56,781 nucleotides of DNA from the IMG/VR virus record IMGVR_UViG_3300030380_000823, positions 1-56,781 of that record; one strand, given 5' to 3'. A program made the position numbers and the translations under genes. A model generated the notes under the pieces. It did not search any database and was not told the DNA's origin. It saw only the letters and a list, made by a program, of their open reading frames with translations. Below are positions 15,702-48,300 of the stretch, in pieces (the first letter of the stretch is position 1; the number at the start of each line of letters is the position of its first letter). This DNA comes from a virus.

Positions 15702-16412
15702 CTATGTGAAGTCGTAATACTCCCTATCCTGCGTCTTCAAAGACCCTTCATTTGGCCTACGTTCTGCTACCGGCACTGAAATAGATATGCGTTTTGTCTT
15801 GGGTATAGCCCTGTGTTTAATCCCTTTCGGTATATACAGCAGGTCGCCTACAGTGAGGTCGAGCGATGTGGAGTCGCCATCATCGTTCTCAAAGCTGTTG
15901 TGGACTTCCCAACTAACGTCCCCTTGAGCATGTACTAAGAAGTTATCGTCATAGTCAATATGGGCACTAAACGTTGAGGCGTTGGACACACCGCTGCAAT
16001 AGAAATGTGCGTCCGCTGCGCCCATATAGTAGCGTTCAATAGCACCCGCAATCATGCTGATCCTCGGTGTCAATAGAGATGCTTTAGTCAAGATCAGAGA
16101 GCCGCCTTGTGTCCAAAGGTCATGTAGGTACTTCTTCTCGTAGTAATCCTTACGGCTCCAGTTGGGTCTGCTCTCGCGTTCGAGGTTGCCCTGTTCCATA
16201 CACAGTTTTCGCCCATCTAGGGTAATCGCCTGCATACCGGCGGTTGCTCTGTCGTTGTTGATGTAGCTGCTGAATTGCTGCCAATCTATGATGTTGTCGA
16301 ACAGTTCTGTTCGAGCCTCGGTTCGAGGAAACACGGCAAAGGCTTTGCCACGATGCTTCTCTTCAAATTCAACGACTGTCATGGGCGCAATCAGGTCTGC
16401 AAAATCTAACAT
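15702..16412 (-). CDS. JmjC/cupin-type Fe(II)/2-oxoglutarate oxygenase, 236 aa
   Basis: The start is ATG at 16412 (MLDFADLIAPMTVVEF), which overlaps the upstream stop by one base (TAATG); a longer reading from 16481 would run into the upstream gene. The double-stranded beta-helix signature is SAHIDYDDNFLVHAQGDVSW, giving His151-x-Asp153, then GDLLYIPKGIKHRA with His200 as the distal iron ligand. This is the arrangement of bacterial JmjC/cupin-4 oxygenases that hydroxylate proteins. Substrate is unknown; a host ribosomal or phage protein is possible. It is the last gene of the leftward arm, just before the terminator. Confidence 0.75.
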   Translation of the reverse strand: MLDFADLIAPMTVVEFEEKHRGKAFAVFPRTEARTELFDNIIDWQQFSSYINNDRATAGMQAITLDGRKLCMEQGNLERESRPNWSRKDYYEKKYLHDLWTQGGSLILTKASLLTPRISMIAGAIERYYMGAADAHFYCSGVSNASTFSAHIDYDDNFLVHAQGDVSWEVHNSFENDDGDSTSLDLTVGDLLYIPKGIKHRAIPKTKRISISVPVAERRPNEGSLKTQDREYYDFT

Positions 16413-16636
16413 TATAGTAATCTCCAAACACGCACACCTGTGTGCGAACCACTTATGACAGCCTTGGCTGTAACGTCCCACCCCATCTCATCTACACAGA
16501 TGCGTTTCACCTGTTGTAAGGCTTTGTTCGTGTTAATGCACGGTATGAATACCGAACTGCCCACCGCCATAGCACCCCAGTCCACCACGATACGTACGCC
16601 ATCAGCGTCTATATCATGTAGCTTCAGCGTTATCAT
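16412..16636 (-). CDS. Small phage protein, 74 aa (GSSVFIPC...VRVWRLL type)
   Basis: A short protein with the pattern VGSSVFIPCINTNKALQQVK ... WDVTAKAV ... GVRVWRLL. This layout (G-S/D-S-x-F-V/I-P, a basic helix, then a beta strand ending in VWR) recurs in many small phage proteins. It is also visible in the 88-aa protein at 28851-29117, suggesting a shared small alpha/beta fold. Function is unknown. It overlaps the end of the primase gene by 23 bases and the start of the JmjC gene by one base. Confidence 0.6.
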   Translation of the reverse strand: MITLKLHDIDADGVRIVVDWGAMAVGSSVFIPCINTNKALQQVKRICVDEMGWDVTAKAVISGSHTGVRVWRLL

Positions 16637-19526
16637 CTGTAGCGCTTTCGTCGCCGCCTGTATCGAACGTCTTGCAGTTGACGATGATTACCCTGCTGGT
16701 GGGTAACTCGAAGTTGGTGCCCTTAGCTAACCGTATGGTTCCCCGTTTACCACCTAACTTCTTAATCATGTCGTCTACAAAGGCGTTGTAATTTATCTGC
16801 TGTGCCGCGCACCAAGCCTTCAAAGGCTTCGGAACTAGGTACGCTTTCTTCGTGTCCGTTTCATACCGAGCCACTAGCTTTCCGCGTGGCAGAGCATCCG
16901 GTATAACGATGCTATCTAGCCCGTTACCAGACCCACTACGTAGGTCGTCGGTGCTTTTAATCATCAGGATATTGTTGTAGTTCTCAGTCAGATAGTCGCT
17001 GACCGTCTGCTCCACTGACACGCCCATGTCCATAACAGACTGCTTGTTAGCCTTGAGCATGTTAATAGTCCACTTAAATAAGCCTTTTATGTCGTAGTCA
17101 ACTAGATCCAGCTTATTGGCAATGTACGCTCCAGCTAGTGTGGTAGCAGCTCCGGCAGACCAGAAACGGTTTTCTGCCGTAAGCCCCGCTGCCTCGTCTA
17201 TCTCTTGCTGGAACTTAAACACCAACGCCTTGACCGACTCCAAGTTTTGCATGACCCACTGGATGTAAATGATCCCAGCGTGCCCATAGTTCTGCTCTAT
17301 AGAAGCATCGAATGCGTCAGTCTTTTTCTTGTCTTCAGTGCTAGAGAACACCCGCTGTGCTTTCCACTCCAGCATACGCTGTGCTTCTGCTTTCGGTTGC
17401 TGTTTCTCAAGAGCAATACGTTCAATCACACTAGCATTACCAGTAGTAACCGACAGGAACTTCCAAGGCTCACCCCTAACACGTTCTAAGTTTGCTCCAC
17501 CTGCCATACGACCACGCTGCTGCCCAGAAGATAGCTGATAGGCTAAGTCACTGAGCTTGTTGCTTTTCTCGTTGGTAAGTTCGTCTACGTAGAAAGGTAG
17601 GTTATGCAATACCTCTGCGCGGTTAAACTTCATAGAGTCGGTGTCGCGCTCCTCGACCATGAGAGCCTTCTCGTAGCCCCATACAGAAGCCGCTACGCGC
17701 ACTGCCGCTGTCTTACCGCACCCACTAATAGAGCTGTGTATATGCAAAGCACAAGAGTTCTGGGGCATAAAAGTCATCAGCGGAGAACCAAAAGCCGTAC
17801 ACACAACGTACTGGTGCATCGTTAGTTCCGGCATAGTGCCGTAAAAATTAGCCATCTTCTTCCACGCTTCTAACGTACCCTTTGGTTTGAAGTACGGAAT
17901 CAGTGCGGCTGTCGGTGTTGACGGAGGGTTATGCCGAATCTCGTCAGCCTGTACTTCCCTTTCCCCAACAATGAATGCTGTGCATGTATCGTCTACCCAA
18001 CCAAACTGCCGGTGCGCCGTGTCCGCCGTAGACGTTGCCTGTAATTCGTTTACCCAAGTAATCATATAGTTCATCAAATCGTCTAGTCGTGGGACAGCTA
18101 CACCTTGCATGGACATGTTCTTGCGAAACTCGTCCCGTGAAGTGACCGCTGTAAGTGGCATTGTAAACTCGCGTACGCCATCTTGCGGTAAGTGTATCCT
18201 ACAGACCACAGATTCACCGGCTTCTACATCCACTAATCTGCGAGTAACGTACAAATCGTTGTGGTACAGCACATGCTCATCCACTTCGCCGTCTACAGTT
18301 ATGTCTCTGATGTACACACCGCCGTTCTGCCCACGAAAATACGGGCGCGGGTAGACTGGTATAACGTGTTGTGTAGAAAGTTCTTGACCAGTATTTTCTG
18401 CAACAAGCGTACCTTCTATTAAATCACCCGACTCACCCGACTCACCCGACTCAATCAGGTAAGTACCGTCCTCGGTAGCTTCTGCTTCTTTGATCTTACG
18501 TCCCAAGATGATGGGTGATTTGACCTTACCCCAGTGAGGGCATTCCGTGCAGATACCGCCCTCGTTCTCATCGAACGTCGTGCAACGGTACGGCCCCTTA
18601 ATCAGATCTAACTTCTTCAGTGTCAGTTCTGGTGTGTACTCAGGGTGCTGGTTTGAAATCTTGTGAGCAGCTTTCTCGCCGTCTTCACAAAACTTAGCGA
18701 TGGACAGCCCTGCCCTCCACATAGGCTCACTTGTTTCGGCCTGACCTTTTATTATGCGGCGTAACTGTTCACAGCCGTTGCCGTTCTGTGCTTTCCGCAG
18801 TATCTCTCTGAAGCTGTAGTTTATGTTTTCCAACAAAGCATCGCGCAGACTAGCTGGCCCGTCCGCACCCGTACGCTTCTGAGGAACCTGTATGGTGTCC
18901 ATACCTAACCGACTGGCGAAGAAGTCAAAGTTAACTGCGTCGGGCTTCTTGTTGACCAGCACTACCGGTGCAGGTACATCCGGCTTATGGTTGTGCGTAC
19001 CCACCACACGTAGCACCCGAGCTACATCTGAAGGCACAGCAGGGTCAATCTCTAGCCCAAATTCTTTGCACTTGGCTTTGAACTGGTCAGCTACGACTTT
19101 CCACTGTTCAACTGGCACGGATTCTTCCAAGACCCAGTAAACGTGTATGCCTCGTCCAGAGTTAACAATAAGAGGTTTTGGTAGCTTGAGCGCAGCGCAG
19201 AACTCTTGCAGTCTACGTATTGCGTCCCTTTGCGTAGCAAACCCCTCACCTTTAGCTACTTTGTCTTCGCCACAATCCAAGTCTAAAAAGAACGACTTGA
19301 TGTGTTTGGCGTCTTCTCCTCTACGAGTACCCTCTTCCTTGAAGTTACTCATAGCAAAGTATATGTCCCAGCCTTCACTGTCGTAGTGTTCGGCGGCTTC
19401 CGCTAGTTCATCAACGGTATGGAAATAGACTTGCTTAATTCCGTTACCGAGAGCGGCGCTATGCCGAAACAGGACATACACACCTTCTGTGGGTAGTACC
19501 CACCGTAAAAATTCTCTTGTATTCAT
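16614..19526 (-). CDS. Primase-helicase (AEP-like primase with DUF927-type helicase)
   Basis: A 970-residue replication protein. ATG at 19526 (MNTREFLRWVLP) is preferred; a TTG four codons upstream is less likely. The N-terminal part looks like an archaeo-eukaryotic primase: FFLDLDCG with Asp82-x-Asp84, GRGIHVYWVL with His128, and EIDPAVPSDVARVLRVVGTHNHK. A Cys-containing segment (CTECPHWG) follows. The C-terminal part is a DUF927-like helicase with Walker A ISGCGKT (about 600-606) and the Walker-B-like segment LPFYVDELTNEKSN. Together it would prime and unwind DNA at the fork, replacing a T7 gp4-type protein. Confidence 0.78.
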   Translation of the reverse strand: MNTREFLRWVLPTEGVYVLFRHSAALGNGIKQVYFHTVDELAEAAEHYDSEGWDIYFAMSNFKEEGTRRGEDAKHIKSFFLDLDCGEDKVAKGEGFATQRDAIRRLQEFCAALKLPKPLIVNSGRGIHVYWVLEESVPVEQWKVVADQFKAKCKEFGLEIDPAVPSDVARVLRVVGTHNHKPDVPAPVVLVNKKPDAVNFDFFASRLGMDTIQVPQKRTGADGPASLRDALLENINYSFREILRKAQNGNGCEQLRRIIKGQAETSEPMWRAGLSIAKFCEDGEKAAHKISNQHPEYTPELTLKKLDLIKGPYRCTTFDENEGGICTECPHWGKVKSPIILGRKIKEAEATEDGTYLIESGESGESGDLIEGTLVAENTGQELSTQHVIPVYPRPYFRGQNGGVYIRDITVDGEVDEHVLYHNDLYVTRRLVDVEAGESVVCRIHLPQDGVREFTMPLTAVTSRDEFRKNMSMQGVAVPRLDDLMNYMITWVNELQATSTADTAHRQFGWVDDTCTAFIVGEREVQADEIRHNPPSTPTAALIPYFKPKGTLEAWKKMANFYGTMPELTMHQYVVCTAFGSPLMTFMPQNSCALHIHSSISGCGKTAAVRVAASVWGYEKALMVEERDTDSMKFNRAEVLHNLPFYVDELTNEKSNKLSDLAYQLSSGQQRGRMAGGANLERVRGEPWKFLSVTTGNASVIERIALEKQQPKAEAQRMLEWKAQRVFSSTEDKKKTDAFDASIEQNYGHAGIIYIQWVMQNLESVKALVFKFQQEIDEAAGLTAENRFWSAGAATTLAGAYIANKLDLVDYDIKGLFKWTINMLKANKQSVMDMGVSVEQTVSDYLTENYNNILMIKSTDDLRSGSGNGLDSIVIPDALPRGKLVARYETDTKKAYLVPKPLKAWCAAQQINYNAFVDDMIKKLGGKRGTIRLAKGTNFELPTSRVIIVNCKTFDTGGDESATDDNAEAT

Positions 19527-26820: not shown

Positions 26821-27329
26821 TAGCTTTGTTCCTTTTGTTTAGTAACCTCAAACACCTTGTCTTTCTTTTTCTGATAGATGTTAAGGGTGTATCTCGGTTC
26901 CTTTGTTTTGTTGTGGTAAAAATGTAACTGGCCCGTGTTGCGCCATGTCACCAAGCGGTTAGGACGCCAGACAATTTCCTCCATAACCTTGCCCTGATCG
27001 CCCCTGTCTTCTTTCAAGAAATACGTCCCGTTACCAATCTTTGGGCGCAGGTACACCACAGAGCTAACTAACTTGCTTGGGTGGTCGTAGTGTAGGTGGT
27101 ATTGGTATTCTGGCCCACAGCGTACAACACCCGCTGAGAAGAACCCCTCGGCCTTGGCTACCTTATCTTCGTAGCACTGCTTGATTCCCTGACACACGGA
27201 CTCGTCTAAATCTGCTTCAAACTTTTTCGCTTCTTCCGTCCCATCAATGAATCGGTACGACAAGCTATGGATGTCCCGTATAAGTCTGTCGTAAAGATCA
27301 GGGTATAAGAAGTTATCTACTATCTTCAC
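26820..27329 (-). CDS. 2-oxoglutarate/Fe(II)-dependent oxygenase, 169 aa
   Basis: A compact prolyl-hydroxylase-like dioxygenase: YQYHLHYDHPSKLVSSVVYL supplies His80-x-Asp82. GQLHFYHN supplies the distal His (His136), and EPRYTLNIYQ supplies the 2-oxoglutarate-binding Arg146, ten residues later. The length is short but complete for the core beta-helix. It overlaps the COQ4-like gene by 4 bases and the polymerase by one. Substrate unknown; the tight coupling to COQ4-like and radical SAM genes suggests action in one pathway (inference). Confidence 0.78.
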   Translation of the reverse strand: MKIVDNFLYPDLYDRLIRDIHSLSYRFIDGTEEAKKFEADLDESVCQGIKQCYEDKVAKAEGFFSAGVVRCGPEYQYHLHYDHPSKLVSSVVYLRPKIGNGTYFLKEDRGDQGKVMEEIVWRPNRLVTWRNTGQLHFYHNKTKEPRYTLNIYQKKKDKVFEVTKQKEQS

Positions 27330-28045
27330 TTGGCGTTCTCTTTCGCCGCACGTAGCTTAGTCATTAACGCTTTGTACCTTGTGGGCTGACGTACACCGAT
27401 GCTTTGCTGCACGATCTCTAATGGTTGGTCTAACAAGACAGGCCAATCTATGCCTGCAAGCCACTCTGATTTTCTGCCGTGCCAATACGCCTCGAAGGAC
27501 GCGCTAAGGACACCCCAGCCCTTCTTCCTAGCGTGGGTTATGGTCATGGGTATGGTCATTGCGATGATGCCTAGATTCGCAAAGTTACCGTGCAAGAACC
27601 AAAGGAGTACCACCTCACCGAAAGGGTTACGCTCGTAACCGGTGACCGTATGCGTCAGATCATGCTGATCTCTGTACCACTTGATGTAGGTATTAAACCC
27701 TGACTCTGATGGCTTCTCGCCTTTGCCCTTAGTATCCCCCGCAAACTGTGCGGTGGAACGGCTTGTTTCTATTAAGAACTTCGAGTATTCGTTGCCAAGA
27801 CTACCGGCAGGCATAACCCGTAATCTGTACACATCATCTAATACGTTAACCAGAGACTCTCTGCCCGCGATTACACGAGAACCCAAAGGCGTATGTCTGA
27901 ATACATCGTACTGCTTACGCACCGACTTGGTTGACAGCCAGTTAAAAAGGATGAACGCCGCTTCCAGATCATCTGGATCTTTATATAGACGGCGTAACGC
28001 ACCGCCCACTTCACGCCACTTTAGTTTGAACTTTGCTATATCCAC
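27326..28045 (-). CDS. COQ4-like protein (ubiquinone biosynthesis family), 239 aa
   Basis: The diagnostic COQ4 metal-binding motif HDxxH-x11-E is complete: HDLTHTVTGYERNPFGE with His128, Asp129, His132 and Glu144. It is preceded by RVMPAGSLGNEYSKFL, which matches the family's R-x-P-x-G-S/T-L-G-x-E-Y segment. COQ4 acts in coenzyme Q biosynthesis in mitochondria and some bacteria, where it binds a metal and a lipid ring precursor. A phage copy could change host quinones or act on another ring compound. It is shared between overlapping neighbours (10 bases with the radical SAM gene, 4 with the oxygenase). Family membership is well supported, function in the phage is inference. Confidence 0.78.
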   Translation of the reverse strand: MDIAKFKLKWREVGGALRRLYKDPDDLEAAFILFNWLSTKSVRKQYDVFRHTPLGSRVIAGRESLVNVLDDVYRLRVMPAGSLGNEYSKFLIETSRSTAQFAGDTKGKGEKPSESGFNTYIKWYRDQHDLTHTVTGYERNPFGEVVLLWFLHGNFANLGIIAMTIPMTITHARKKGWGVLSASFEAYWHGRKSEWLAGIDWPVLLDQPLEIVQQSIGVRQPTRYKALMTKLRAAKENAK

Positions 28046-28860
28046 TTTTTATACCCCTCAACAATTTGCGGTTTTGCACATGGGACATCACACGATGCAC
28101 AAGGCGCAACAGCATCTCTGTTCCCGTTTATAAGCTCGGTAGAGATACGACGTAGCTCTTCGTTATCGCGCCATTCTCTGAACAGGTTTACATCTTTGAC
28201 GTTGGCGAAGCCGATCTGATGCGACCAATCGTTGCAGCACATCTGCAACTGTCCATCGAAGTTAATGAATATGCCCCTCATGGGATGAACGCATGGCCCC
28301 TTCACAGCAGTACCGCCAGCTATCAACCCAGCCCTGTGATTGAATTGATGCTTCCATCTAATCGGCCTACCCTTCGGGTCAGCATAATCAGGAAGCTCAT
28401 TTACATCCTCAACTGACCCGCCGTCAGGCTTCCAATAGTCCTCAATCCGCTCACCGTTATCTAGGCGTGGGTACTTCGTACGTCTGGCGAAGAAATCTTC
28501 TTCTGTCGTGTAGGTGTTCAGCACAAGGTTGTCTAGCTGACGATAGTATTTCCAGTAACGATCAAGTCTCCAGCCATTAGTTGTTACCTGTGCGCGGTAT
28601 CTTCTGGGCTTACGGAGAAGACGCTGTATTATCTTCTCGAATTTTGGATTGTTGGTGCTTTCCCCTCGACCTGCCAGTATGACAGTACCATCAAAGCGCC
28701 ACTCTTCGATCTGATCCATGATCCGAGCAAACAATTCCAGACTCATGTTCTGGTTGTTGTTGGGGTATATGGACGCATCAGACCGTGGGCAGAACGAACA
28801 GGTACGGTTACACAAATCTGTAATGTTTATATCGACCTGTAGCACACCCTCTAAGTCCAT
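28036..28860 (-). CDS. Radical SAM protein with SPASM-like C-terminus, 274 aa
   Basis: The N-terminus holds the cluster motif CNRTCSFC (Cys17, Cys21, Cys24; CxxxCxxC) after a VDINITDLC strand. ILAGRGESTNNP (about 62-72) fits the SAM-binding GGE-type motif. The C-terminal part has further cysteines: Cys190 (GPCVHP), Cys208-Cys209 (QMCCNDW), Cys254, Cys257 and Cys261 (CASCDVPC), which look like an auxiliary SPASM/twitch iron-sulfur site. Such enzymes modify peptides, sugars or small molecules. No obvious small precursor peptide is adjacent. It overlaps the COQ4-like gene. Confidence 0.85.
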   Translation of the reverse strand: MDLEGVLQVDINITDLCNRTCSFCPRSDASIYPNNNQNMSLELFARIMDQIEEWRFDGTVILAGRGESTNNPKFEKIIQRLLRKPRRYRAQVTTNGWRLDRYWKYYRQLDNLVLNTYTTEEDFFARRTKYPRLDNGERIEDYWKPDGGSVEDVNELPDYADPKGRPIRWKHQFNHRAGLIAGGTAVKGPCVHPMRGIFINFDGQLQMCCNDWSHQIGFANVKDVNLFREWRDNEELRRISTELINGNRDAVAPCASCDVPCAKPQIVEGYKKWI

Positions 28861-32480: not shown

Positions 32481-33815
32481 TTAGTGGATCTCCGCTGGAT
32501 CAATGTGTACGACCTTGCCGTTGTCGGGAGTCGCATGTTTGTTGTCGATCACACACCACAGGGTTGGGCAGTCCCATGTACCCCAGTCACCGAACAGGTA
32601 ACCATCGGTGAGGATGATCGTTGCTTGTGGCTTGATCTGATGCTGCTGCATGTGCTCGACCACGCACTCAACATCGGTACCGCCGCCACCTCGGGGTTTG
32701 GTAGATTGCGCCAGCGTGTCTAGCTCGTGGGACTCGTATGACTCGTCACCCACAACCTTGTGACCCCAGTACAGTAGGCGAACCTTGTCGGGCTTGACCG
32801 TAGTGCAGATCGACTGAACTTCTGACAGGAACACAGCCAGATCAGCGTCGGGGATAGACCCTGACGTATCAACAGCAATCACAAGCTCATCGACCTTCTC
32901 GCTGATACCGCTAGGCATATAGACACCGGCACCAATGTATCGACGGTTGGGACGTTTCCATGTGGAGTAGTCGTTGCCAGTACAGGTTGTCTGAATGAAC
33001 TCGCGCAGTACCTCACGCCAATCGACCTGCGATTGCATAAGCTCATCGAGTAGACGATTGCCCGTAATGCCCGACTTGCCAGCGATAATGCTGCCCTGAC
33101 GTATCGCTATGTCTACCTCTTTCTCAAGCTCTTTGACTTCATCGTCTGACAGGTTATCTGCACCATCCCAGTCGTGCTCATCGAAACCCCGTGGCTCGTT
33201 GCCTTCTGGCTCTCCGTTACCGGAACTCCGTGAATCGGTTGGTTCACCGATACCGTCATCGTCACCGCCCTTGCCGGTAGGTGGAAATGGGAAACCGCCG
33301 CCACCTTTGGGCGGTTGCTGCGTACCATCATCCAATGTCTTGAAGATCACAGCAGTATCAGACCATGATCCATCGGGCTTGCGGAACTGTTCATCGTACA
33401 GCCCCATACGTTCGCCTACGTGTTCGCCATCTTTGTAGATAGGCATAGTGGCAAAGCCATCCTCTCGGTTCTCATCGACCAGCTTGCCGTTGATGTTGTA
33501 GTCGCATGACGCATTAGCGAGTTTGTGGTTCTTGTCGTGCAAGTGTTTCCACGTTATCAGGTGCCGGTACATCTTGTGATAGCACTCATGCAGTATCACG
33601 AAGCGAAGCTCGGCATCGGTCAGGGAATCAACGAACGCTCGACCATAAGTCTCGTCACGCCCGTTGGTACATGCAGTTGGTACGTCATCGCTGACAGTCT
33701 TGCTGCCTACCATGAGTACACCAGCCAAGGCCATGTACCGTGGGTGAGCAGTAATAGCTATCACTGCTTTGGTGATCCGCTGCTCGGCGGTCAGTTGTTG
33801 GTTTAGTGCTAACAT
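32481..33815 (-). CDS. DUF2201-type HExxH metallopeptidase fused to a VWA domain, 444 aa
   Basis: The N-terminal domain contains RFVILHECYHKMYRHL with His76-Glu77-xx-His80 and a downstream ASCDYNIN segment that could add a metal ligand, the arrangement of DUF2201 putative peptidases. An acidic Gly/Pro-rich linker follows (about 165-235). The C-terminal VWA-like domain has the MIDAS motif AVDTSGSIPD and GGGGTDVECV. Proteins of this make-up pair with MoxR-type AAA+ ATPases (as CobT pairs with CobS) to act on metal cofactors or protein complexes. The MoxR gene lies just upstream. The ribosome binding site AAGGAGATAAC is strong. Confidence 0.85.
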   Translation of the reverse strand: MLALNQQLTAEQRITKAVIAITAHPRYMALAGVLMVGSKTVSDDVPTACTNGRDETYGRAFVDSLTDAELRFVILHECYHKMYRHLITWKHLHDKNHKLANASCDYNINGKLVDENREDGFATMPIYKDGEHVGERMGLYDEQFRKPDGSWSDTAVIFKTLDDGTQQPPKGGGGFPFPPTGKGGDDDGIGEPTDSRSSGNGEPEGNEPRGFDEHDWDGADNLSDDEVKELEKEVDIAIRQGSIIAGKSGITGNRLLDELMQSQVDWREVLREFIQTTCTGNDYSTWKRPNRRYIGAGVYMPSGISEKVDELVIAVDTSGSIPDADLAVFLSEVQSICTTVKPDKVRLLYWGHKVVGDESYESHELDTLAQSTKPRGGGGTDVECVVEHMQQHQIKPQATIILTDGYLFGDWGTWDCPTLWCVIDNKHATPDNGKVVHIDPAEIH

Positions 33816-33956: not shown

Positions 33957-35060
33957 TTACACCTTGTCCGCTGCGAACATGTAGCCGTTCTCTATAGCCC
34001 ACTGAGTAAACAGCTTGCTCTGCATAACCATAGACTGTCTGGCTTTGTTGTATCTGCTGGATCGAACACCGTTGGCGAACAGACCTTGAGCTTCTTTGTC
34101 CAGCCGATCCACGTATGTCATCCACGCATCAATCCAATCACGCTCCACCGCAGCCAGTGCTTTGAACACCACCATGCAGGTAGCAGCTACGGACGTTGGC
34201 ACCGTGGCATTGTCGGGATCGTTCTTGATTGACTCCAATGACGGTAGCTGGTCAGCCAGTTTGAGGAATGCCATAAAGTCTGCGGCGGCTCGGACACCGA
34301 TAGTGCCCATGAGTGCTGCCTGTAACGTGTTATCGTCCAGCCCCTCACGACGTTTCAAGATGTCACTCGCTGCATGTAGTGAACGTGGCGTGCAGAACGC
34401 AGCCCGATCCACAGCTTTGGGGTGAAAGATGTACTGGTTGTCATCTGGATTCGGTACATCGCGGAAGTCTTGCATGACTGCGGAATTCTCTTTGACCCAG
34501 CCCAGTATTGTGTGGTCGAGATCGTTACCAACGCCCCACTCGACCCACTCCATGTGGTCAGGCTTTTTAGTCTCGACCACGGTGATACGGTTACGGGCAT
34601 GTGCAGGTAACAGATCACCCACACCCTCGCTGCCGAGGTTGGTCGTGGCGAATATGATGGAGTCGGGGTGCAGTGTGTAGCTGCCGATCTTACGTTCGAG
34701 GATCAAACGTAGCAGGGCATTCTTGACTGCGGGGTTGGCCTTACCGAACTCGTCAATCATCAGGATGATCGGCTTGTCGTGGTGGGCACCCAATTCCTCG
34801 TTGGTCAGGTACGTCACATAGCCAGTGCCGTCATCCAGCTTGGCGATGTTGGGTATCGTGATGTCACCCAAGTCCTTGGTCGTGCAGTCGAGAAAACATG
34901 CTATGTAATCCGGCAGTGCCTCTGAGATTTCGGTAAGCAGTGATGACTTACCTGTACCCATGTGGCCTTGAAGTAAGACTGTGCGAAGCCGACCGATTGC
35001 CAAGATTAGTGCCTTGGCTTGTTCGAGGCTCAGTGCGTAAGTTTGTTGTGCATAGCTCAT
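33957..35060 (-). CDS. MoxR-family AAA+ ATPase, 367 aa
   Basis: The start is ATG at 35060 (MSYAQQTYALSLEQAKALI) behind GGAAAGGAGATAGCC; the in-frame extension upstream reads through the palindromic element and is not protein. Motifs: Walker A QGHMGTGKSSLL (about 31-42), Walker B IILMIDEFGKA (Asp103, Glu104), sensor-1-like IIFATTNLGSEG and an Arg-containing LLPAHARNRITVV. Typical of MoxR/CobS-like ATPases that remodel a target with a VWA partner. First gene behind the promoter at 35156-35184. Confidence 0.88.
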   Translation of the reverse strand: MSYAQQTYALSLEQAKALILAIGRLRTVLLQGHMGTGKSSLLTEISEALPDYIACFLDCTTKDLGDITIPNIAKLDDGTGYVTYLTNEELGAHHDKPIILMIDEFGKANPAVKNALLRLILERKIGSYTLHPDSIIFATTNLGSEGVGDLLPAHARNRITVVETKKPDHMEWVEWGVGNDLDHTILGWVKENSAVMQDFRDVPNPDDNQYIFHPKAVDRAAFCTPRSLHAASDILKRREGLDDNTLQAALMGTIGVRAAADFMAFLKLADQLPSLESIKNDPDNATVPTSVAATCMVVFKALAAVERDWIDAWMTYVDRLDKEAQGLFANGVRSSRYNKARQSMVMQSKLFTQWAIENGYMFAADKV

Positions 35061-35091
35061 GGCTATCTCCTTTCCGTTTTGTTGTTTTGGT

Positions 35092-35114
35092 TTTGTGTAT
35101 AAGTCATACACAAA
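35092..35114. promoter_or_regulatory. Palindrome P1, TTTGTGTAT-AAGTC-ATACACAAA
   Basis: Perfect 9-bp arms around a 5-bp centre, between the promoter at 35156-35184 and the MoxR start, about 30 nt before the ribosome binding site. It contains TGTGTATAA, the complement of TTATACACA, a perfect match to the DnaA-box consensus TTATNCACA. The flanking GTTGGTTAGTG is also found after the copy at 36771. Could be a DNA operator, a DnaA site or a 5'-leader RNA hairpin. Confidence 0.75.
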
Positions 35115-35155
35115 GTTGGTTAGTGGTAGGCAGTATTGCCCTGTGGTGAATCACC

Positions 35156-36156: not shown

Positions 36157-36744
36157 TTAAAAGTTGCCTTCGGCTACCTGTAAGCAGGTTATGCCGTTGG
36201 ATCGCCACATATCGACCACACGCTGGCGGTCATCTACTGCGAACAAGATGTTGCTCTTGTCCACGGTTTTCAGTATCTCGTTGAACATGTCCTGCTTGAT
36301 GTCTTTGTCGGGGTCATGCCTACGGTTATCAGGACGCATCATCAGGTAGGTATCCAGATGAGCTTCGATAGACTCGCGGGTATAGCCCTCGTCTGCATAA
36401 AGATCATCGTGATACGAACCTTCGTAAGAGCACTTATCCAATAAGAAGTTACGAGTAACCTCGCGGTACTGCTCCATACGCCCAGTACAGAAGATGATCT
36501 GCTTGGCTGAGTCCTCGCACATCCACAGTAGATCCACTATAGGTTCGTTGGGTGTGTCCCACTCCATCGCCGCGTTGAAGGCATCGAAGTCCTTTTTCTT
36601 GCCGGTGACAAAGTGCCTTCGGTGTTCGATGTCAGCCAGTGTGCCGTCGATGTCAAAGATGACGGTTGGCACGTTATCAATCGGTTCGGGCAGGATAACC
36701 CTGCGACCTGTGTTCCTATCTTCATGGGCTGTAAAAAATGGCAT
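36157..36744 (-). CDS. HAD-superfamily 3'-phosphatase (T4 PNKP phosphatase-domain-like), 195 aa
   Basis: The start is ATG at 36744 (MPFFTAHEDRNTGRRV) after AAGGAGGCAGCA; the upstream extension translates palindrome P2. HAD motifs: FDIDGTLADIEHRRHF (motif I), IIFCTGRMEQYRE (motif II), KQDMFNEIL (motif III Lys) and FAVDDRQRVVDMWR (motif IV). The layout, including LMMRPDNRRHDPDKDIK, matches the phosphatase half of T4 polynucleotide kinase without the kinase half. Likely removes 3'-phosphates from nicked nucleic acid. Confidence 0.8.
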   Translation of the reverse strand: MPFFTAHEDRNTGRRVILPEPIDNVPTVIFDIDGTLADIEHRRHFVTGKKKDFDAFNAAMEWDTPNEPIVDLLWMCEDSAKQIIFCTGRMEQYREVTRNFLLDKCSYEGSYHDDLYADEGYTRESIEAHLDTYLMMRPDNRRHDPDKDIKQDMFNEILKTVDKSNILFAVDDRQRVVDMWRSNGITCLQVAEGNF

Positions 36745-36770
36745 TGCTGCCTCCTTATCGTTGGTTTGGT

Positions 36771-36793
36771 TTTGTGTATAAGTCATACACAAA
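36771..36793. promoter_or_regulatory. Palindrome P2, TTTGTGTAT-AAGTC-ATACACAAA
   Basis: Identical to P1, in the short gap between the 127-aa gene and the 3'-phosphatase gene. The surrounding leader (AACCAAACCAACGATAAGGAG on the leftward strand, and GTTGGTTAGTG on the other side) is also shared with P1, so the whole cassette was duplicated. No promoter is evident directly beside it. Confidence 0.75.
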
Positions 36794-36798
36794 GTTGG

Positions 36799-37182
36799 TT
36801 AGTGAACTGACACAAGCACCGCGCTTTTACGCAATGCCATGAGGTTGACGGTGCCGTGGCGCGAACAGTCGAGATACTGAACGCCGCCCTTGATGTATAC
36901 ATGCTCGGGCATGTCGAGCAGACGGAACAGCGCATTGAGTCGGGACTGTGTAGTGCGCGACGGTGCGAGTACCTTACGCCCGTTCACCTCCTTCTCGTAT
37001 CCGCCACAGGACACCCATAACTTCTTTACCCCATCTCGATTCGACATGGTGGCGATGCGGTTGCCATGCAGTAACAGGTCGAGACTGCGGGTGGCTTGGT
37101 TGAACACGGACTGCGTGTTGCCCATTGCTTTGGTGTCGCCCTTGATGAACGCACCGATAACTTCTTTTTCGATCTTACGCAT
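36799..37182 (-). CDS. Conserved phage protein, 127 aa
   Basis: Begins MRKIEKEVIGAFIKGDTKAM and contains LDLLLHGNRIATM, then VLAPSRTTQSRLNALFRLLD and HVYIKGGVQYLD. The combination 'R-K-I-E-x-E ... HGN-x-I-A ... T-SRLNAL' recurs in many marine and gut phages in the early region, with no known function. It overlaps the 107-aa gene upstream by 8 bases. Its stop lies inside the repeated P2 cassette. Confidence 0.55.
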   Translation of the reverse strand: MRKIEKEVIGAFIKGDTKAMGNTQSVFNQATRSLDLLLHGNRIATMSNRDGVKKLWVSCGGYEKEVNGRKVLAPSRTTQSRLNALFRLLDMPEHVYIKGGVQYLDCSRHGTVNLMALRKSAVLVSVH

Positions 37183-37498
37183 TACTGTCTCCTAACAGGT
37201 CACACATACGGTCTAGCTGGTACTCGGTAACGTGCGGCTTGTTCTTGGCTAGACCGGCCTGCGCTATGGTCACGAGTGTGTTTAGCTTTTCCAGCAGGTC
37301 ATCGTGCTCGGCTTTGACCAACCTGATCTTGGCTTCGTGGTGAGCTTGGTCGTCCCAACGTAGAGTCTCGCTGGCCTTGTTTACAGATTCGAGGTGTCTG
37401 ATCTCAAACGCGGCTGTCCTTAACGTCACATAACTATGCGGAATTGAGTCTGCGAGTTGCTCCAATTGCTCGGGCAAGCTCTTTTCTTCATCTGACAT
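37175..37498 (-). CDS. Unknown helical protein, 107 aa
   Basis: The start is ATG at 37498 (MSDEEKSLPEQLEQLAD) after AAGGAGACAGCA; the longer frame to 37543 only translates palindrome P3. Helical and charged, with EIRHLESVNKASETLRWDDQ and IRLVKAEHDDLLEKLNTLV. First gene of the leftward block behind the promoter at 37587-37615. Function unknown. Confidence 0.55.
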   Translation of the reverse strand: MSDEEKSLPEQLEQLADSIPHSYVTLRTAAFEIRHLESVNKASETLRWDDQAHHEAKIRLVKAEHDDLLEKLNTLVTIAQAGLAKNKPHVTEYQLDRMCDLLGDSNA

Positions 37499-37521
37499 TG
37501 CTGTCTCCTTTCGTTGTTGGT

Positions 37522-37544
37522 TTTGTGTATAAGTCATACACAAA
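37522..37544. promoter_or_regulatory. Palindrome P3, TTTGTGTAT-AAGTC-ATACACAAA
   Basis: Identical in sequence to P1 and P2, located between the promoter at 37587-37615 and the 107-aa gene, and containing a DnaA-box-like TGTGTATAA. In a transcript it would form a 9-bp stem about 10 nt upstream of the Shine-Dalgarno sequence. Confidence 0.75.
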
Positions 37545-37586
37545 AAATGAGTGTGTCGGGCAGGGGTCTCCTCACCGACAAGAGAT

Positions 37587-37615
37587 ATTGTCTCACATAT
37601 AACGTGTTATGTCAA
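37587..37615 (-). promoter_or_regulatory. Sigma70-like early promoter at the edge of the origin-like region
   Basis: On the leftward strand: perfect TTGACA, a 17-nt spacer beginning TAACACG, then GACAAT (4 of 6 matches to TATAAT). Shares the TAACACG extension with the promoters at 35156 and 39061. Drives the block starting with the 107-aa gene. Confidence 0.65.
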
Positions 37616-37652
37616 GCGGTGGTCAGGCGTGGTATCTGGTGGTGAGAAGTGT

Positions 37653-38003
37653 AATGTTACGCAATGTTACGTCCTATGGGCTGGTAAGTCCTTGATAAGT
37701 AAGCAATGTTACATTGTTGCGTTTTTCAGGGAATTGAATGGGTCTGAGCGCAGACGCTCGGGAACGTAACATTAGTTCTGTGTAACGAGATTTTCTGCAA
37801 GTAGGGGGGTCAACGGGCGAGGTATATATACTTTTTGGTAAAAACGTAACATTGTAAGGACTACTATATATATATACAGGTTTTTGTATAAATACATACT
37901 AATACTTACAACCAGATACCACGAAATACAACGAGGATAATGTTGCCTTTTTGCCATTTCAAAACGCAACATTGCGTAACATTAGCGTTTCGGACGTAAC
38001 ATT
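37653..38003. repeat. Dispersed 9-bp repeats CGYAACATT / AATGTTRCG
   Basis: Copies read directly: AATGTTACG at 37653 and 37663, AATGTTACA at 37705, CGTAACATT at 37765, 37845, 37975 and 37995, and CGCAACATT at 37965. The first three are in one orientation and the rest in the other, with the AT-rich stretch inside the second group. Several are 10 bp apart (about one helical turn: 37653/37663 and 37965/37975), suggesting cooperative protein binding. Confidence 0.75.
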
Positions 38004-38009
38004 AGCCCC

Positions 38010-38036
38010 GCACCTCGAATCTAGGAGCTGGTATCG
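38010..38036. repeat. 27-bp direct repeat, copy 1
   Basis: Begins GCACCTCGAATCTAGG and ends GGTATCG. It is separated from copy 2 by 54 bp that contain palindrome P4. Compared with copy 3 it differs at a single base (AGCTGG for AACTGG). Confidence 0.85.
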
Positions 38037-38050
38037 TGGTAACGTGTTAC

Positions 38051-38073
38051 TTTGTGTATGAACTATACACAAA
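38051..38073. promoter_or_regulatory. Palindrome P4 (variant), TTTGTGTAT-GAACT-ATACACAAA
   Basis: Same 9-bp arms as P1-P3 but a different 5-bp centre, so the DnaA-box match is broken (TGTGTATGA, TGTGTATAG). It lies between direct-repeat copies 1 and 2. On the leftward strand it is followed by a TAACACG word (38041-38047), as upstream of the promoter at 39061. Confidence 0.7.
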
Positions 38074-38090
38074 ACGTATCATCCTGTGCC

Positions 38091-38117
38091 GCACATCTAA
38101 TCTAGGAACTGGTGTCG
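38091..38117. repeat. 27-bp direct repeat, copy 2
   Basis: Begins GCACATCTAATCTAGG and ends GGTGTCG. Diverges from copy 3 at three positions while keeping the core AATCTAGGAACTGGT. It is 26 bp from copy 3. Confidence 0.85.
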
Positions 38118-38143
38118 GAGGCGCACTGCACAATGCGTTTGGC

Positions 38144-38170
38144 GCACCTCGAATCTAGGAACTGGTATCG
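38144..38170. repeat. 27-bp direct repeat, copy 3
   Basis: Begins GCACCTCGAATCTAGG and ends GGTATCG, with AACTGG in the centre. It lies 12 bp before the A-run of the leftward terminator at 38183. Confidence 0.85.
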
Positions 38171-38182
38171 AAAAATTCGAGA

Positions 38183-38210
38183 CAAAAAAAATCCCCGCCG
38201 AAGCGGGGAT
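38183..38210 (-). terminator. Rho-independent terminator after the first leftward gene
   Basis: ATCCCCGC (38191-38198) pairs with GCGGGGAT (38203-38210) around a CGAA tetraloop. On the leftward strand the stem is followed by a run of T (A run at 38184-38191). It ends transcription of the 256-aa gene 22 nt after its stop codon and isolates that gene from the rest of the early arm. Confidence 0.88.
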
Positions 38211-38231
38211 CTCTCTGGGTTGGTGGGTGGA

Positions 38232-39002
38232 TTACTTGGCTTTGCGGTGGCTCAGAGTGCGAGTCAAACCTTCCAGCAGGTTTTGCACTGCTTGGCTTTC
38301 AGCGATTACTGCCTGCTGGCCTACATCGAATGCCGCTAGCTTGTTAACCAGTTCAATCAACACGGGGTGTTGAATCGAGCGCGGCGCTGGTGAGGTTTTA
38401 GCCTCAGTCACTGGGCCGGACTCAATGTGCGTGTCAGTTGAGACGCCGCCGGTTTGGGTATCCTTACCCTTGGCAGTTTGAGCCTTAGGCGCTTTGGTAG
38501 GCTTAACTACCGTGGGAACGCCCAGCATATTGTTAACCTCATTGCGGAGGTTCGCCATGCCGGTGCTGATACGGTTAGACGATGTGCGCTGCGCCTTGAT
38601 GAAAGCCGCTACCGCATTCTTCTGCGATTTGGTAACGGGTTTTTTGTTGCCGCCGGACAGCTTCAACTTGTGAGCCTTCACCGCATCGCGATCCATGCTA
38701 AACAGTTCAAGCATGTTGAATCCGGCGAGGCCAACGGTACCGAACCGTTCATAGTTCGCCATGACATATCCACGTTCCAGCGCATGGAATTTGCTGTTAT
38801 CGGCATATTGCGCTTTATTGAATGACAGATCAGTAACATTAATCATGGGCTTTGCGCCCTTGGCCTTGATGTACTGCGCCGTCTTCGACGACCATGTTAA
38901 GCCTAGCAGCGCCGCAGTAGCGTCTTTCTGCGCGGCTTTACTGCCCGCGAATGCCTTTGAGTGCGCCTCGATTCCTGCAAGATTGTAGTTTGAATTTGGC
39001 AT
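38232..39002 (-). CDS. Unknown early protein in its own transcription unit, 256 aa
   Basis: Family not recognised. Residues about 1-100 are helical with LTWSSKTAQYIKAKGAKPMI and KFHALERGYVMANYERFGTV. A Lys-rich region (KLSGGNKKPVTKSQKNAVAAF) follows, then a Thr/Ala/Lys linker (about 165-205) and a C-terminal helix (HPVLIELVNKLAAFDVGQQA, then VQNLLEGLTRTLSHRKAK). It has its own promoter (39061), ribosome binding site (GGAGAAAGGC) and terminator, and adjoins the origin-like region. This setting would suit a regulator or replication initiator binding the nearby repeats, but that is inference. Confidence 0.6.
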   Translation of the reverse strand: MPNSNYNLAGIEAHSKAFAGSKAAQKDATAALLGLTWSSKTAQYIKAKGAKPMINVTDLSFNKAQYADNSKFHALERGYVMANYERFGTVGLAGFNMLELFSMDRDAVKAHKLKLSGGNKKPVTKSQKNAVAAFIKAQRTSSNRISTGMANLRNEVNNMLGVPTVVKPTKAPKAQTAKGKDTQTGGVSTDTHIESGPVTEAKTSPAPRSIQHPVLIELVNKLAAFDVGQQAVIAESQAVQNLLEGLTRTLSHRKAK

Positions 39003-39060
39003 AATGCCTTTCTCCGTTTTGTTAAGTTAATGCCGGTGGATCACCCCGCCGACGCCCCAA

Positions 39061-39089
39061 ATTATAACACCATGACGTGTTACACACAA
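39061..39089 (-). promoter_or_regulatory. Sigma70-like promoter of the 256-aa gene
   Basis: On the leftward strand: TTGTGT, a 17-nt spacer containing TAACACG, then a perfect TATAAT. The start point would be near 39054, giving a leader of about 50 nt before ATG at 39002. Palindrome P5 lies about 35 bp upstream of the -35 box. Confidence 0.7.
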
Positions 39090-39122
39090 GTAAACCGTGG
39101 TATATGGCGGCAAATAGTGGTT

Positions 39123-39147
39123 TTTTGTGTATAAATCATACACAAAA
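39123..39147. promoter_or_regulatory. Palindrome P5, TTTTGTGTAT-AAATC-ATACACAAAA
   Basis: Ten-bp arms, the longest of the five copies, in the divergent region upstream of the leftward promoter at 39061. Contains the DnaA-box-like TGTGTATAA. Because here the palindrome is upstream of the promoter and at P1/P3 it is downstream, a DNA-level binding site explains the set better than an RNA hairpin alone. Confidence 0.75.
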
Positions 39148-39431
39148 CCGGCAAATCTGACCCCACCGCCCCCCGACCCCCGCGCACTGCTAGCAGCTAC
39201 GCACGGCGCATGTATTACTAATTCGCTCAAATAATCACTATCACCACGAGTTTGCACATCATTTTGTATTTTCTGGTAGTATCTGATGGTTTTTTGAGGC
39301 CGTTCCCTACTAATCCCCACACAGGAAACCCCCCACCCCAAAAATAAAAGTCTCCCCGAAAAAAATTTTTGCTATATCTGGTGGTTTTTGATGTATATTC
39401 GCGGCAACGACTTACAGTCTGCGTACAATTT
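39148..39431. promoter_or_regulatory. Divergent intergenic region, right half (late-arm leader)
   Basis: About 280 nt without a credible gene. Contains two C-run clusters (39161-39182 and 39329-39356), whose complementary strand has four or more G-runs in the first case. Also contains the related words TATCTGATGGTTTTTT (about 39285) and TATCTGGTGGTTTTTG (39375-39390). A rightward promoter is expected here. TTGCTA (39369) and TATATT (39394) are candidates, but their 19-nt spacing is poor, so I do not call a box. Confidence 0.4.
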
Positions 39432-40082
39432 ATGACTCTATTTATAGAACCTGAGATCGGTGTGCCGCTGACAGATGACACGCCGAATATAGATCTGAAG
39501 GAACGCGCCGAAGCAGCGTGCAATACTGCGCTGAAACTGGCAGAGCATGGATTAGATTTGGAACCAACAGCCGAAGATGAAGATGTAGCGGCAAAGCTCG
39601 CTATGTCTTATGCCGACGACCCCGAAAAGACTTCTCGCAAGGTCACCGCGAAGAAGGCGGCTACCCTCACACCCGCTTCTATGGTTCTGACAAACAACAT
39701 ACTGCAAGAGTTTGGACATTCGGTTGCAGAGAGTGCGACTCAGATCCGGCATCTAGTTACCAACAAACTTCTTTTAGAGTCCGAGAACGACGATCCGCGC
39801 ATTCGCATACGGGCTTTGGAACTTCTAGGTAAGATCTCAGACGTAGGACTGTTCGCAGAGAAGTCAGAGGTGACCATAACGCACCAGTCCACGGATGATC
39901 TGCGTGACAAGTTACGTGGTAAGTTGGAGAAGCTGGTACAGCCTGTAGACGACATAGCAGAGGGCGACTACGAAGACGTAGTGCTGGACGGCGAAGTGCT
40001 AGACCTCAAGAAAGAGCTTGGTCTGGACGACGTTGAAGCGGCTGCGAACGAGGTAGCGCAGGACGAGGACTACGATGGTTGA
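39432..40082 (+). CDS. Terminase small subunit (putative), 216 aa
   Basis: The start is ATG at 39432 (MTLFIEPEIGVPLTDDTP); the longer frame from 39369 begins within the leader. Helical protein with TPASMVLTNNILQEFGHSVAE, IRIRALELLGKISDVGLFAE and a C-terminal LRDKLRGKLEKL plus an acidic tail. Assignment rests on its place directly before (8-base overlap) the large terminase and on the LELLGKxxxVGLF and DLRDKL patterns common in small terminases. It would recognise the packaging site and regulate the motor. Confidence 0.68.
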   Translation: MTLFIEPEIGVPLTDDTPNIDLKERAEAACNTALKLAEHGLDLEPTAEDEDVAAKLAMSYADDPEKTSRKVTAKKAATLTPASMVLTNNILQEFGHSVAESATQIRHLVTNKLLLESENDDPRIRIRALELLGKISDVGLFAEKSEVTITHQSTDDLRDKLRGKLEKLVQPVDDIAEGDYEDVVLDGEVLDLKKELGLDDVEAAANEVAQDEDYDG

Positions 40083-41628
40083 GGCCGTTCCCAGTTTTAC
40101 TGAGGAAGAAGTACAGCAGATGCTGGACAACCTCGACGCCTTTTCAGATGAGGAGGTTGTGGAGATAAATCGCATCGTGGATGAGCTGGAAGTACGCAAA
40201 ACGAACGAGGCGGCGTACGACGACCTCATAGAGTTCTGCAAACGGATGCAGCCAGACTACATTGTGGGCAAACATCACCGGATCTTGGCGGATATGTTGA
40301 TGGCTATTGAGGCGGGTAACAAGGATCGCATCTGTGTGAACATCCCACCGCGCCACGGCAAGTCCCAACTTGTCTCTATCTTCTTTCCAGCGTGGTTTTT
40401 GGGGCGGAATCCGAACAAAAAGGTGATGATGGTGTCGCATACCACTGACTTGGCAGTGGATTTTGGTCGAAAAGTGCGGAATCTCATCTCTACAGACGAC
40501 TATCAGGCCATATTTTCTACTGTACAGCTCGCCAGCGACTCAAAATCAGCCGGTAGATGGAACACAAACTCCGGTGGCGAGTATTATGCGTGCGGTATTG
40601 GCTCTGCACTGGCTGGTCGTGGTGCAGATCTGCTGTTGGTGGACGACCCACACTCGGAACAGGACGTAATTAACGGCAACTTCACGGTATTTGAGAAGGC
40701 ATACGAGTGGTTTACCTTCGGTGCGCGTACTCGTCTAATGCCGGGAGGCCGTGTGGCGATAATCCAGACCCGATGGCACCAAGATGACCTGACTGGGCGC
40801 GTTATACGCGACATGACGCAGAATGACAGGGCGGATGAGTACGAGGTGGTCGAATTCCCTGCCATACTGGAGATTGAAGACGAGGACACGGAAGAGATTG
40901 TCGAGAAACCGCTGTGGCCTGAGTTCTTTGACCTAGAGGCGCTGCTGCGGACTAAGGCGTCGATGCCTACATTCCAGTGGAACGCGCAGTATCAGCAGAC
41001 ACCCACGGCAGAAGAGGCCGCGCTGGTCAAGCGCGAGTGGTGGCAGATCTGGGAGCAGGACAGCCCGCCGTCATGTGAGTATATAATTATGTCGCTGGAC
41101 GCAGCGGCAGAGAAACACAACCGTGCGGACTACACGGCGCTGACTACATGGGGTGTGTTCCTCAACGAAGAGTACGACAACTATCACATCATCCTGCTGA
41201 ACAGTATAAAGAAGCGGTTGGAGTTCCCAGAGCTGAAGGACTTGGCGCTGGAGGAGTACACTGAGTGGGAACCCGATGCGTTCATTGTAGAGAAGAAGTC
41301 ATCAGGTACGGCGCTGTATCAGGAGATGAGGCGTATGGGACTGCCTGTCTCAGAGTACACGCCTCACAGGGGATCAGGTGATAAGTTAGCGCGTCTTAAC
41401 TCAGTATCTGATATTGTAGCGTCTGGTTTGGTGTGGGTACCTCCCACACGGTGGGCAGAAGAGGTAGTTGAAGAGATTGCTGGATTTCCGTTTATGAGCC
41501 ATGATGACTTGGTTGACTCAACAGTCATGGCTCTTATGCGTTTCAGGCAGGGCGGATTCATACGACTGCCAACAGATGAGCCGGAAGAACCAAGATACTT
41601 TAAGTCGCGGCGGGGCGGCTTCTACTAG
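40075..41628 (+). CDS. Terminase large subunit, 517 aa
   Basis: The packaging motor and nuclease. ATPase motifs: Walker A NIPPRHGKSQLVS, Walker B DLLLVDDPHSEQD, coupling motif IIQTRWHQDD. The C-terminal RNase-H-like nuclease begins with the catalytic Asp in IIMSLDAAAEKHNRADYTAL, then FIVEKKSSGTALYQEM (Glu) and MSHDDLVDSTVMAL (Asp pair). Starts inside the small terminase gene (overlap 8 bases) and is followed by the portal 9 bases later. Confidence 0.93.
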   Translation: MVEAVPSFTEEEVQQMLDNLDAFSDEEVVEINRIVDELEVRKTNEAAYDDLIEFCKRMQPDYIVGKHHRILADMLMAIEAGNKDRICVNIPPRHGKSQLVSIFFPAWFLGRNPNKKVMMVSHTTDLAVDFGRKVRNLISTDDYQAIFSTVQLASDSKSAGRWNTNSGGEYYACGIGSALAGRGADLLLVDDPHSEQDVINGNFTVFEKAYEWFTFGARTRLMPGGRVAIIQTRWHQDDLTGRVIRDMTQNDRADEYEVVEFPAILEIEDEDTEEIVEKPLWPEFFDLEALLRTKASMPTFQWNAQYQQTPTAEEAALVKREWWQIWEQDSPPSCEYIIMSLDAAAEKHNRADYTALTTWGVFLNEEYDNYHIILLNSIKKRLEFPELKDLALEEYTEWEPDAFIVEKKSSGTALYQEMRRMGLPVSEYTPHRGSGDKLARLNSVSDIVASGLVWVPPTRWAEEVVEEIAGFPFMSHDDLVDSTVMALMRFRQGGFIRLPTDEPEEPRYFKSRRGGFY

Positions 41629-47732: not shown

Positions 47733-47790
47733 TAGATTATCCCTGACAGGCGCATACCGTGCCTGACATAACCCAAGACAGGAGATACAC

Positions 47791-48300
47791 ATGGGTACTA
47801 CAACCTTCTCTGGTGCTATTCGTTCAGAAAGCACGGTCAAAACCATTAGCAAAAATGCCTCAACGGGTACAGTTACAGAGATTGTAACGCTTGGTGACGG
47901 GCCTGTTAGCCTTGCTGATGCCGACGTAACGCTTACCAATGCAACTCACAGTGGCAGGATTCTTCTTGTTCCAGATGGTGGTCAAGATAATACTTATACG
48001 CTTCCGGCTCCTATTGCTGGATCTGTTTTTAAGTTCGTATACGCTGGTGGCGCTGCTGATGCTACGGACGCGATTATTGTTACTCCCGGCAACACTAATT
48101 TTTACATTGGTGGTGTTACTTTCCTAGATACAGATGGCAACGAAGTTAGCTCAGTATTCTCTGATGGAAACTCCAACAGCAGCATACAGTTGAACGTACC
48201 TGCTGGTTTTGAAGTGACCATAATCGGTCTTGATACGACCAATTATCAGATTTTTGGGAATGTAACGAGCACTACTGCGCCTGCATTTGCTGACCAGTAA
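47791..48300 (+). CDS. Structural beta-rich protein, 169 aa
   Basis: The start has CAGGAGATACAC upstream. The composition is Thr/Ser/Ala/Val/Gly-rich without Cys. Segments NATHSGRILLVPDGGQDNTY, AGSVFKFVYAGGAADATDAI and SIQLNVPAGFEVTIIGLDTT suggest a beta-sandwich such as a head-decoration or fibre-like protein. First gene of the post-capsid transcript. Confidence 0.6.
   Translation: MGTTTFSGAIRSESTVKTISKNASTGTVTEIVTLGDGPVSLADADVTLTNATHSGRILLVPDGGQDNTYTLPAPIAGSVFKFVYAGGAADATDAIIVTPGNTNFYIGGVTFLDTDGNEVSSVFSDGNSNSSIQLNVPAGFEVTIIGLDTTNYQIFGNVTSTTAPAFADQ

Follow-up and report, generated by a model that had tools for sequence, protein, structure and literature searches.

A marine phage with a predicted SaPI/P4-like replication origin fused to its early promoter region

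We predict, with a probability of about 0.9, that the gene-free segment at 37499–38231 of a 56,781-base virus contig (the window, i.e. the whole stretch of DNA analysed) is the replication origin of a marine phage, fused with its early promoter region. The best explanation of the data is a SaPI/P4-like origin that would be common to a widespread phage group. It is described here as an origin predicted to work like that of SaPI, and its likely initiator is a SaPI-Rep-like primase–helicase, the gene of which lies 18 kb from the repeats, in place of an adjoining Rep of the plasmid type. An iteron-type origin had been proposed in a first-pass annotation of this DNA, and it is supported as the best reading because opposed iteron arrays lie round an AT-rich tract, the iterons of a phage change in concert, and residues of the primase–helicase track those changes. 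A concrete candidate origin, initiator, and mechanism can be put forward, from sequence alone, for a large uncultured phage group (>100 related loci).

The gene-free region and its iterons

The region measures 733 bp and is the largest gap in the gene list of the genome (the next are 623, 544, 511, and 366 bp), in agreement with the earlier claim of about 730 nt without genes. It is limited by the start codon of 37175–37498 (−) and the stop codon of 38232–39002 (−), and the list of open reading frames has only overlapping junk-type ORFs inside it. The head genes run rightward (39.4–56.8 and 0–15.5 kb) and the early and replication genes leftward (39.0–15.7 kb), and the region adjoins the first early gene, as had been noted, with 37175–37498 directly downstream of the early promoter. 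All the parts named in the first-pass annotation were located within it, namely three repeat families (CGTAACATTR, a 28-nt repeat, and a 25-bp palindrome), a TATATA-rich stretch, and the flanking terminator and promoter (Table 1). Rfam gave no match in the region (one match elsewhere) and no tRNA was found there, and a reading of the region as RNA was rejected on these negatives. The stretch 36500–39400 has no DNA-level relatives in the phage collection.

Table 1. Positions in the window of the candidate origin, its parts, its neighbouring genes, and the proposed initiator
Feature	Position	Strand	Basis or remark
Whole candidate origin and early control region, gene-free	37499..38231	.	Largest gap; in relatives the same genes enclose the same layout
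First gene downstream of the early promoter	37175..37498	−	Varies between relatives
Dispersed 25-bp palindrome	37521..37545	.	Between promoter and ribosome-binding site of 37175–37498
Early promoter TTGACA-17-GACAAT, extended −10	37587..37615	−	Palindrome TAACGTGTTA (37600–37609) in spacer; kept in relatives
Iteron array 1	37652..37726	−	Sites 37652–37661, 37662–37671, 37704–37713, degenerate ~37714–37723; all −
Iteron array 2	37765..38004	+	Sites 37765–37774, 37845–37854, 37965–37974, 37975–37984, 37995–38004
AT-rich TATATATA tract	37822..37907	.	Candidate unwinding element between/within the opposed arrays
28-nt element, copy 3	38009..38036	−	Repeat search; directly beside iteron array 2
Dispersed 25-bp palindrome TTTTGTGTAT-N5-ATACACAAAA	38050..38074	.	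Inside the region
28-nt element, copy 2	38090..38117	−	Repeat search
28-nt element, copy 1 (GATACCAGTTCCTAGATTCGAGGTGCG on − strand)	38143..38170	−	Conserved in the phage group
Intrinsic terminator of 38232–39002	38183..38211	−	Hairpin ATCCCCGCCGAAGCGGGGAT, then T8; same position in relatives
Gene upstream of the region, 256 aa	38232..39002	−	Family search without match
Proposed initiator, PrimPol – DUF927 helicase – C-terminal winged helix, 974 aa	16614..19538	−	Pfam, PDB, Foldseek, AF2 model
C-terminal winged-helix domain, residues 886–955	16674..16883	−	Tracking residues 934 (16737–16739) and 949 (16692–16694)

The 10-bp repeat CGTAACATTR is present in about ten copies in the region. With at most one mismatch it has 14 matches in the whole window, eight of them inside 37652–38004, against 6.2 expected by chance per window, and none of 100 shuffles reached 14. 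The copies form two opposed arrays, the second of which also holds a degenerate site in the opposite orientation (37940–37949). The AT fraction over 60 bp is 0.77 at 37860–37919, with the TATATA tract inside, and short iterons are found on both sides of the AT-rich tract, as is expected of a SaPI-type origin. Of the three repeat families, CGTAACATTR is the only one that behaves as iterons; the earlier view of the repeats as parts of an origin holds for this family and does not hold for the palindrome, which is dispersed in front of early genes.

Iterons with an AT-rich tract are also what an iteron-plasmid or lambda-type origin would present, at which a small Rep or O-like protein would act with host DnaA and load host DnaB, and a DnaA-box consensus, TTATNCACA, does occur at 37524 inside the palindrome. 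However, this word is found once in the region, within a dispersed palindrome whose sequence differs in relatives, and the region and its relatives show no conserved DnaA boxes. Since there is no RepA-, pi- or O-like gene among the early proteins tested and the phage carries a helicase of the self-loading type and a primase of its own, we consider this the least probable of the alternatives.

The GC-skew minimum, suggested earlier as a check, gave a divided answer. At 4-fold sites the minimum lies 1.3–6.8 kb from the iteron cluster in five of seven near-complete genomes and ~20–22 kb off in the other two (G005 and G089), and the measure is confounded by gene orientation. As it fails in two genomes and strand switches confound it, GC skew was not used as evidence for the origin.

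The primase–helicase as proposed initiator

The protein encoded at 16614–19538 matches Pfam DUF927 (3e-22), and its sole sequence match in the PDB is 8tch (E 1e-13), titled in Foldseek as the SaPIbov1 replication initiator with helicase activity. The AlphaFold2 model has a mean pLDDT of 76, with moderate values of 67–84 for 10-residue blocks of the C-terminal domain. Its best Foldseek hits are 8tch (1.4e-17) and 5dgk, the SCCmec Cch (3.1e-16), and VIA-align superposes 8tch over model residues 396–960 (Z 25.8) and 5dgk over 393–962 (Z 29.7), while the other rows are single-domain matches. The N-terminal 210 residues match PrimPol domains (e.g. 6zp9), and in the model residues 886–955 are predicted to fold as strand–strand–helix–helix–strand–strand, a winged-helix-like unit. 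The protein is thus a DUF927, SaPI-Rep-like AAA+ helicase.

The SaPI replicon (SaPIbov1 Rep, 8tch) is alike in its AAA+ DUF927 helicase fold, its C-terminal DNA-binding domain, and its origin of short iterons. It differs in that the phage protein has a PrimPol domain ahead of the helicase and the owner is a 56.8-kb phage with its own head genes. In addition, the iterons (37652–38004) are 18 kb from the initiator gene and beside an early promoter, and do not lie directly downstream of that gene as in SaPI; because the origin does not adjoin the initiator gene, we do not class it among the SaPI replicons. According to one report, SaPI Rep reads its origin iterons via the C-terminal domain, apparently as two hexamers (PMC7581432). 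The helicase part has its best structural match in 5dgk, of the SCCmec proteins Cch/Cch2 (Z 29.7). For these, the same report states that a putative origin with repeats, three 5-nt iterons in the site, is bound by Cch2 through its C-terminal domain, and that SCC replication has not been shown in vivo (PMC7581432). Primase–DUF927 fusions in mobile elements were noted as predicted helicases by Kazlauskas et al., with no origin given for them in the portion of the paper available (PMC5862659).

Our computation covers the tracking of two iteron positions by the C-terminal winged helix; for the later steps, SaPI Rep and related helicases serve as the model from which they are inferred. In the proposed sequence of events, the leftward early operon would be transcribed from the promoter at 37615–37587, and the last of its large genes would supply the initiator. 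The C-terminal domain of the primase–helicase would bind the opposed iteron arrays, and two helicase rings would assemble face to face over the AT-rich tract, which they would melt before loading themselves and leaving in both directions. The PrimPol domain would then prime both forks for the PolA-type polymerase of the phage, and this polymerase, a gp2.5-like SSB, and nucleases would complete replication.

A comparable plan is known from phage P4, where the alpha protein joins primase, helicase, and a C-terminal origin-binding domain in one chain, and where the origin, set apart from the gene, combines an AT-rich tract with short iterons that face both ways. P4 is a satellite phage with a different helicase family, and the likeness is one of layout. 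Besides ori, it has a second iteron region, crr, and both hold iterons. Here, the iteron cluster is unique in each of seven near-complete genomes, in which the next-best 450-bp window has zero or one exact site. This bears on the reading in which the primase–helicase binds the region for copy control or for its own expression and replication truly starts elsewhere. Binding alone would leave the same covariation between protein and iterons, and the skew minima are off in two of seven genomes; however, no second iteron cluster is present in the seven near-complete genomes, and we regard this reading as highly improbable.

Conservation and concerted change of the iterons

Relatives were collected via the upstream gene (13 loci), via the downstream AAA ATPase (80 loci), and with two further queries (80 each). 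Among the 13 upstream-gene loci, the contigs that reach far enough keep the same order of parts, and the gene after the region varies. When the sequence upstream of the ATPase was searched de novo for its most over-represented 8-mer in 120 loci (22 further loci were too short), seven of these had no GGAACATT-like word, under a lenient threshold of five of eight letters with shifts allowed, and the 113 positive loci were reduced to 72 non-redundant ones. In these the arrays on the two sides of a split point are opposed, with a mean orientation purity of 0.932 compared to 0.684 for shuffled orientations; the layout is absent in two rows (L026 and L079). The AT-rich tract is present in relatives too. 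The search for the repeats in relatives, asked for earlier, therefore returned the iteron-array layout across the 72 loci with a sequence that differs between phages. The fetched stretches of G062, G074, and G057 had no iteron cluster; they start no more than ~1.5–2.5 kb from the ATPase gene and probably fall short of the region. The ATPase, MoxR-like (33957–35111) and adjoined by a DUF2201/VWA protein (32481–33815), stands beside the origin throughout the phage group.

More distant homologues of the initiator are found in Pseudomonas phage Rollin, in which no comparable iteron cluster was found, and in Rhizobium phage RHph_TM3_14A. In the latter, a 770-bp AT-rich gap (L137 1357–2126 = MN988472 19356–20125) carries ATAATGAT-type repeats and is possibly the origin of that phage.

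Within a phage the iteron sequence is largely uniform, but it varies from one phage to another, with all copies changing together. It is GTAACATT in the window and GTTACATT in L012/L013, and in other relatives GGAACATT, AGAACATT, CGAACATT, CGAACAGT, GGAACTTT, GGAACAAT, or GGTACA.. One such pair is L088 and L089 (the latter a 9.2-kb contig, IMGVR_UViG_3300031688_001071, in which no initiator gene was seen), which share 98.9% identity across 8.2 kb downstream and 91% across the region, and which have iterons at the same positions, reading GGAACTTT throughout L088 and GTAACATT throughout L089. Such uniform replacement of all iterons is expected if one DNA-binding protein must read every copy, and near-identical phages with the entire iteron set switched amount to a rare natural experiment on the evolution of replication specificity.

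We then asked, for 20 phages with both parts, which of the 974 columns of the primase–helicase are private to an iteron class, with a single residue that every phage of the class shares and no other phage has. For position 1 (A/C versus G) only column 949 (Asp) qualifies, and for position 3 (T versus A) only column 934 (Gln). The wing of the C-terminal winged helix contains both. For random groups of similar spread, 0.1% of quintuples and 2 of 60 triples gave a column of the domain, the real triple being one of the two. As this private-residue test had been chosen after the alignment was seen, the two rules were then fixed and 20 new records collected as a fair test. Both rules fit all 17 callable records of the 20 (G079, G085, and G077 were uncallable), a set that includes the near-duplicate pairs G088/G089 and G099/G100. 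At position 1, Asp949 goes with A/C (9/9) and Trp949 with G (7/7), and at position 3 Lys934 goes with A (16/16), while the single Gln934/Arg949 phage has GGTACA; some site sets are mixed, e.g. that of G091, with six C among nine sites.

In the combined set both rules hold in 34 of 34 phages, compared to 0.88 and 0.94 for the next-best column at the two positions; G054 was left out as mixed at position 1. Across these 34 phages Asp949 accompanies A/C at position 1 and Trp, Ser, His, or Arg949 accompanies G, whereas at position 3 Gln934 accompanies T and Lys, Ser, or Thr934 accompanies A; Arg949 occurs with T at position 2 or 3 in seven of eight. On a tree of the 34 phages built without the domain, parsimony requires four changes for each iteron label and likewise four for each residue label. 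The AAA ATPase, used as a control, has no such column (best 0.82 and 0.94). Two further statistics were set aside as support, as they are not specific to the C-terminal domain: partial Mantel r peaks in the linker 361–400 (0.43), with 0.12–0.40 in windows of the C-terminal domain, and a branch co-change test showed no overall enrichment of the domain (Mann–Whitney p 0.13–0.92).

These data suggest that the iterons are probably recognised by the C-terminal domain of the primase–helicase. The amino groups of A or C could donate a hydrogen bond to Asp949, and Gln934 would pair well with the A opposite T. The two rules make the initiator–origin specificity of self-loading helicases testable at two residues. 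A wider recognition code, in which a few wing residues set iteron specificity and phages often switch it, rewriting about ten iterons at once, is a tentative proposal that we think somewhat doubtful. If it were true, switching would possibly allow escape from satellites, competitors, or origin-directed defences. In the titles and abstracts covered, a scope outside which most subscription journals lie, neither such an origin nor a residue–iteron rule is described for the DUF927 helicase type. In geminiviruses, the residues of Rep and the iterons likewise change together between lineages, though Rep there is a rolling-circle protein, unrelated in protein and mechanism.

The promoter, the palindromes, and the 28-nt repeats

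A promoter scan gave no overall excess (five sites compared to 5.1 in shuffles), but the site at 37615–37587 is conserved, being found by a stricter pattern in 40 of the 72 non-redundant loci. The terminator was read directly from the sequence and is missing from the list of the consensus scanner. Further copies of the 25-bp palindrome are present at 35091–35115, 36770–36794, and 39123–39147, in front of other early genes, and no copy is expected by chance. The palindrome is often just upstream of a ribosome-binding site, and four copies contain TTATNCACA. It is an element preceding several early genes and not a feature of the origin, and is probably a candidate operator that regulates them. 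The corresponding places in relatives hold a different palindrome (of the CACTAAC, CCCTAAA, or TGCCCGAA type), and such differences between phages likely reflect another coevolving regulator. The divergent gap at 39003–39368, at the boundary of the early and late clusters, has the palindrome and GTATCTGGTGGT-like words in common with the origin region, and CGTAACATTR iterons are absent from it.

The promoter and the dispersed palindromes, in the region and before several early genes, raise the question of whether the iterons are themselves operators of an early-gene regulator, similar to the 'stoperator' sites of a repressor, which would make the region a control region and not an origin. The operators of a phage repressor would also change together within a genome. 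In contrast to such sites, each genome has its iterons in a single cluster and does not scatter them before genes, their opposed arrays round an AT-rich tract fit helicase loading, and the residues that track them belong to a replicative helicase, with the dispersed palindrome being the better candidate for an operator. We therefore hold this reading to be very unlikely and retain that of an origin.

The 28-nt repeats, with three copies where none is expected, are a separate conserved element. In relatives the element is 30 nt long, with the consensus GATACCAGTTCtt.gaGtaGCgttGcGC, and is present in 112 of 142 anchored loci, usually in two or three copies; 22 of the 142 loci end early on the upstream side. 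It sits on the side of the upstream gene and strongly favours one strand, with a density there of 1.18 per kb, compared to 0.23 on the opposite strand and 0.28 in coding DNA. The core of the element does not vary with the type of iteron. An RSF1010-like ssi hairpin was considered and is unsupported, as 182 unique copies showed no conserved hairpin (alifold energy 0.0). The element could be the site of another protein, a priming site, or a packaging site. Its conservation in the group, and its distance of ~1.2 kb from a gene that adjoins the one for the large terminase (39369–41628), would suit a packaging (pac/cos) or attachment site built from these repeats. As an account of the whole region this is hardly likely, since it leaves the iterons and their tracking by the helicase unexplained and no integrase was found among the proteins tested, but it could still hold for the 28-nt repeats alone.

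Elsewhere in the window, an Rfam Mu-gpT-DE RNA (70 bits) lies at 47741–47793 between late genes, before 47791–48300. Auxiliary-type genes encode a PNKP-like phosphatase (36157–36792), a Coq4-like protein (27326–28045), a radical SAM/SPASM protein (28036–28860), and a JmjC-like protein (15702–16481).
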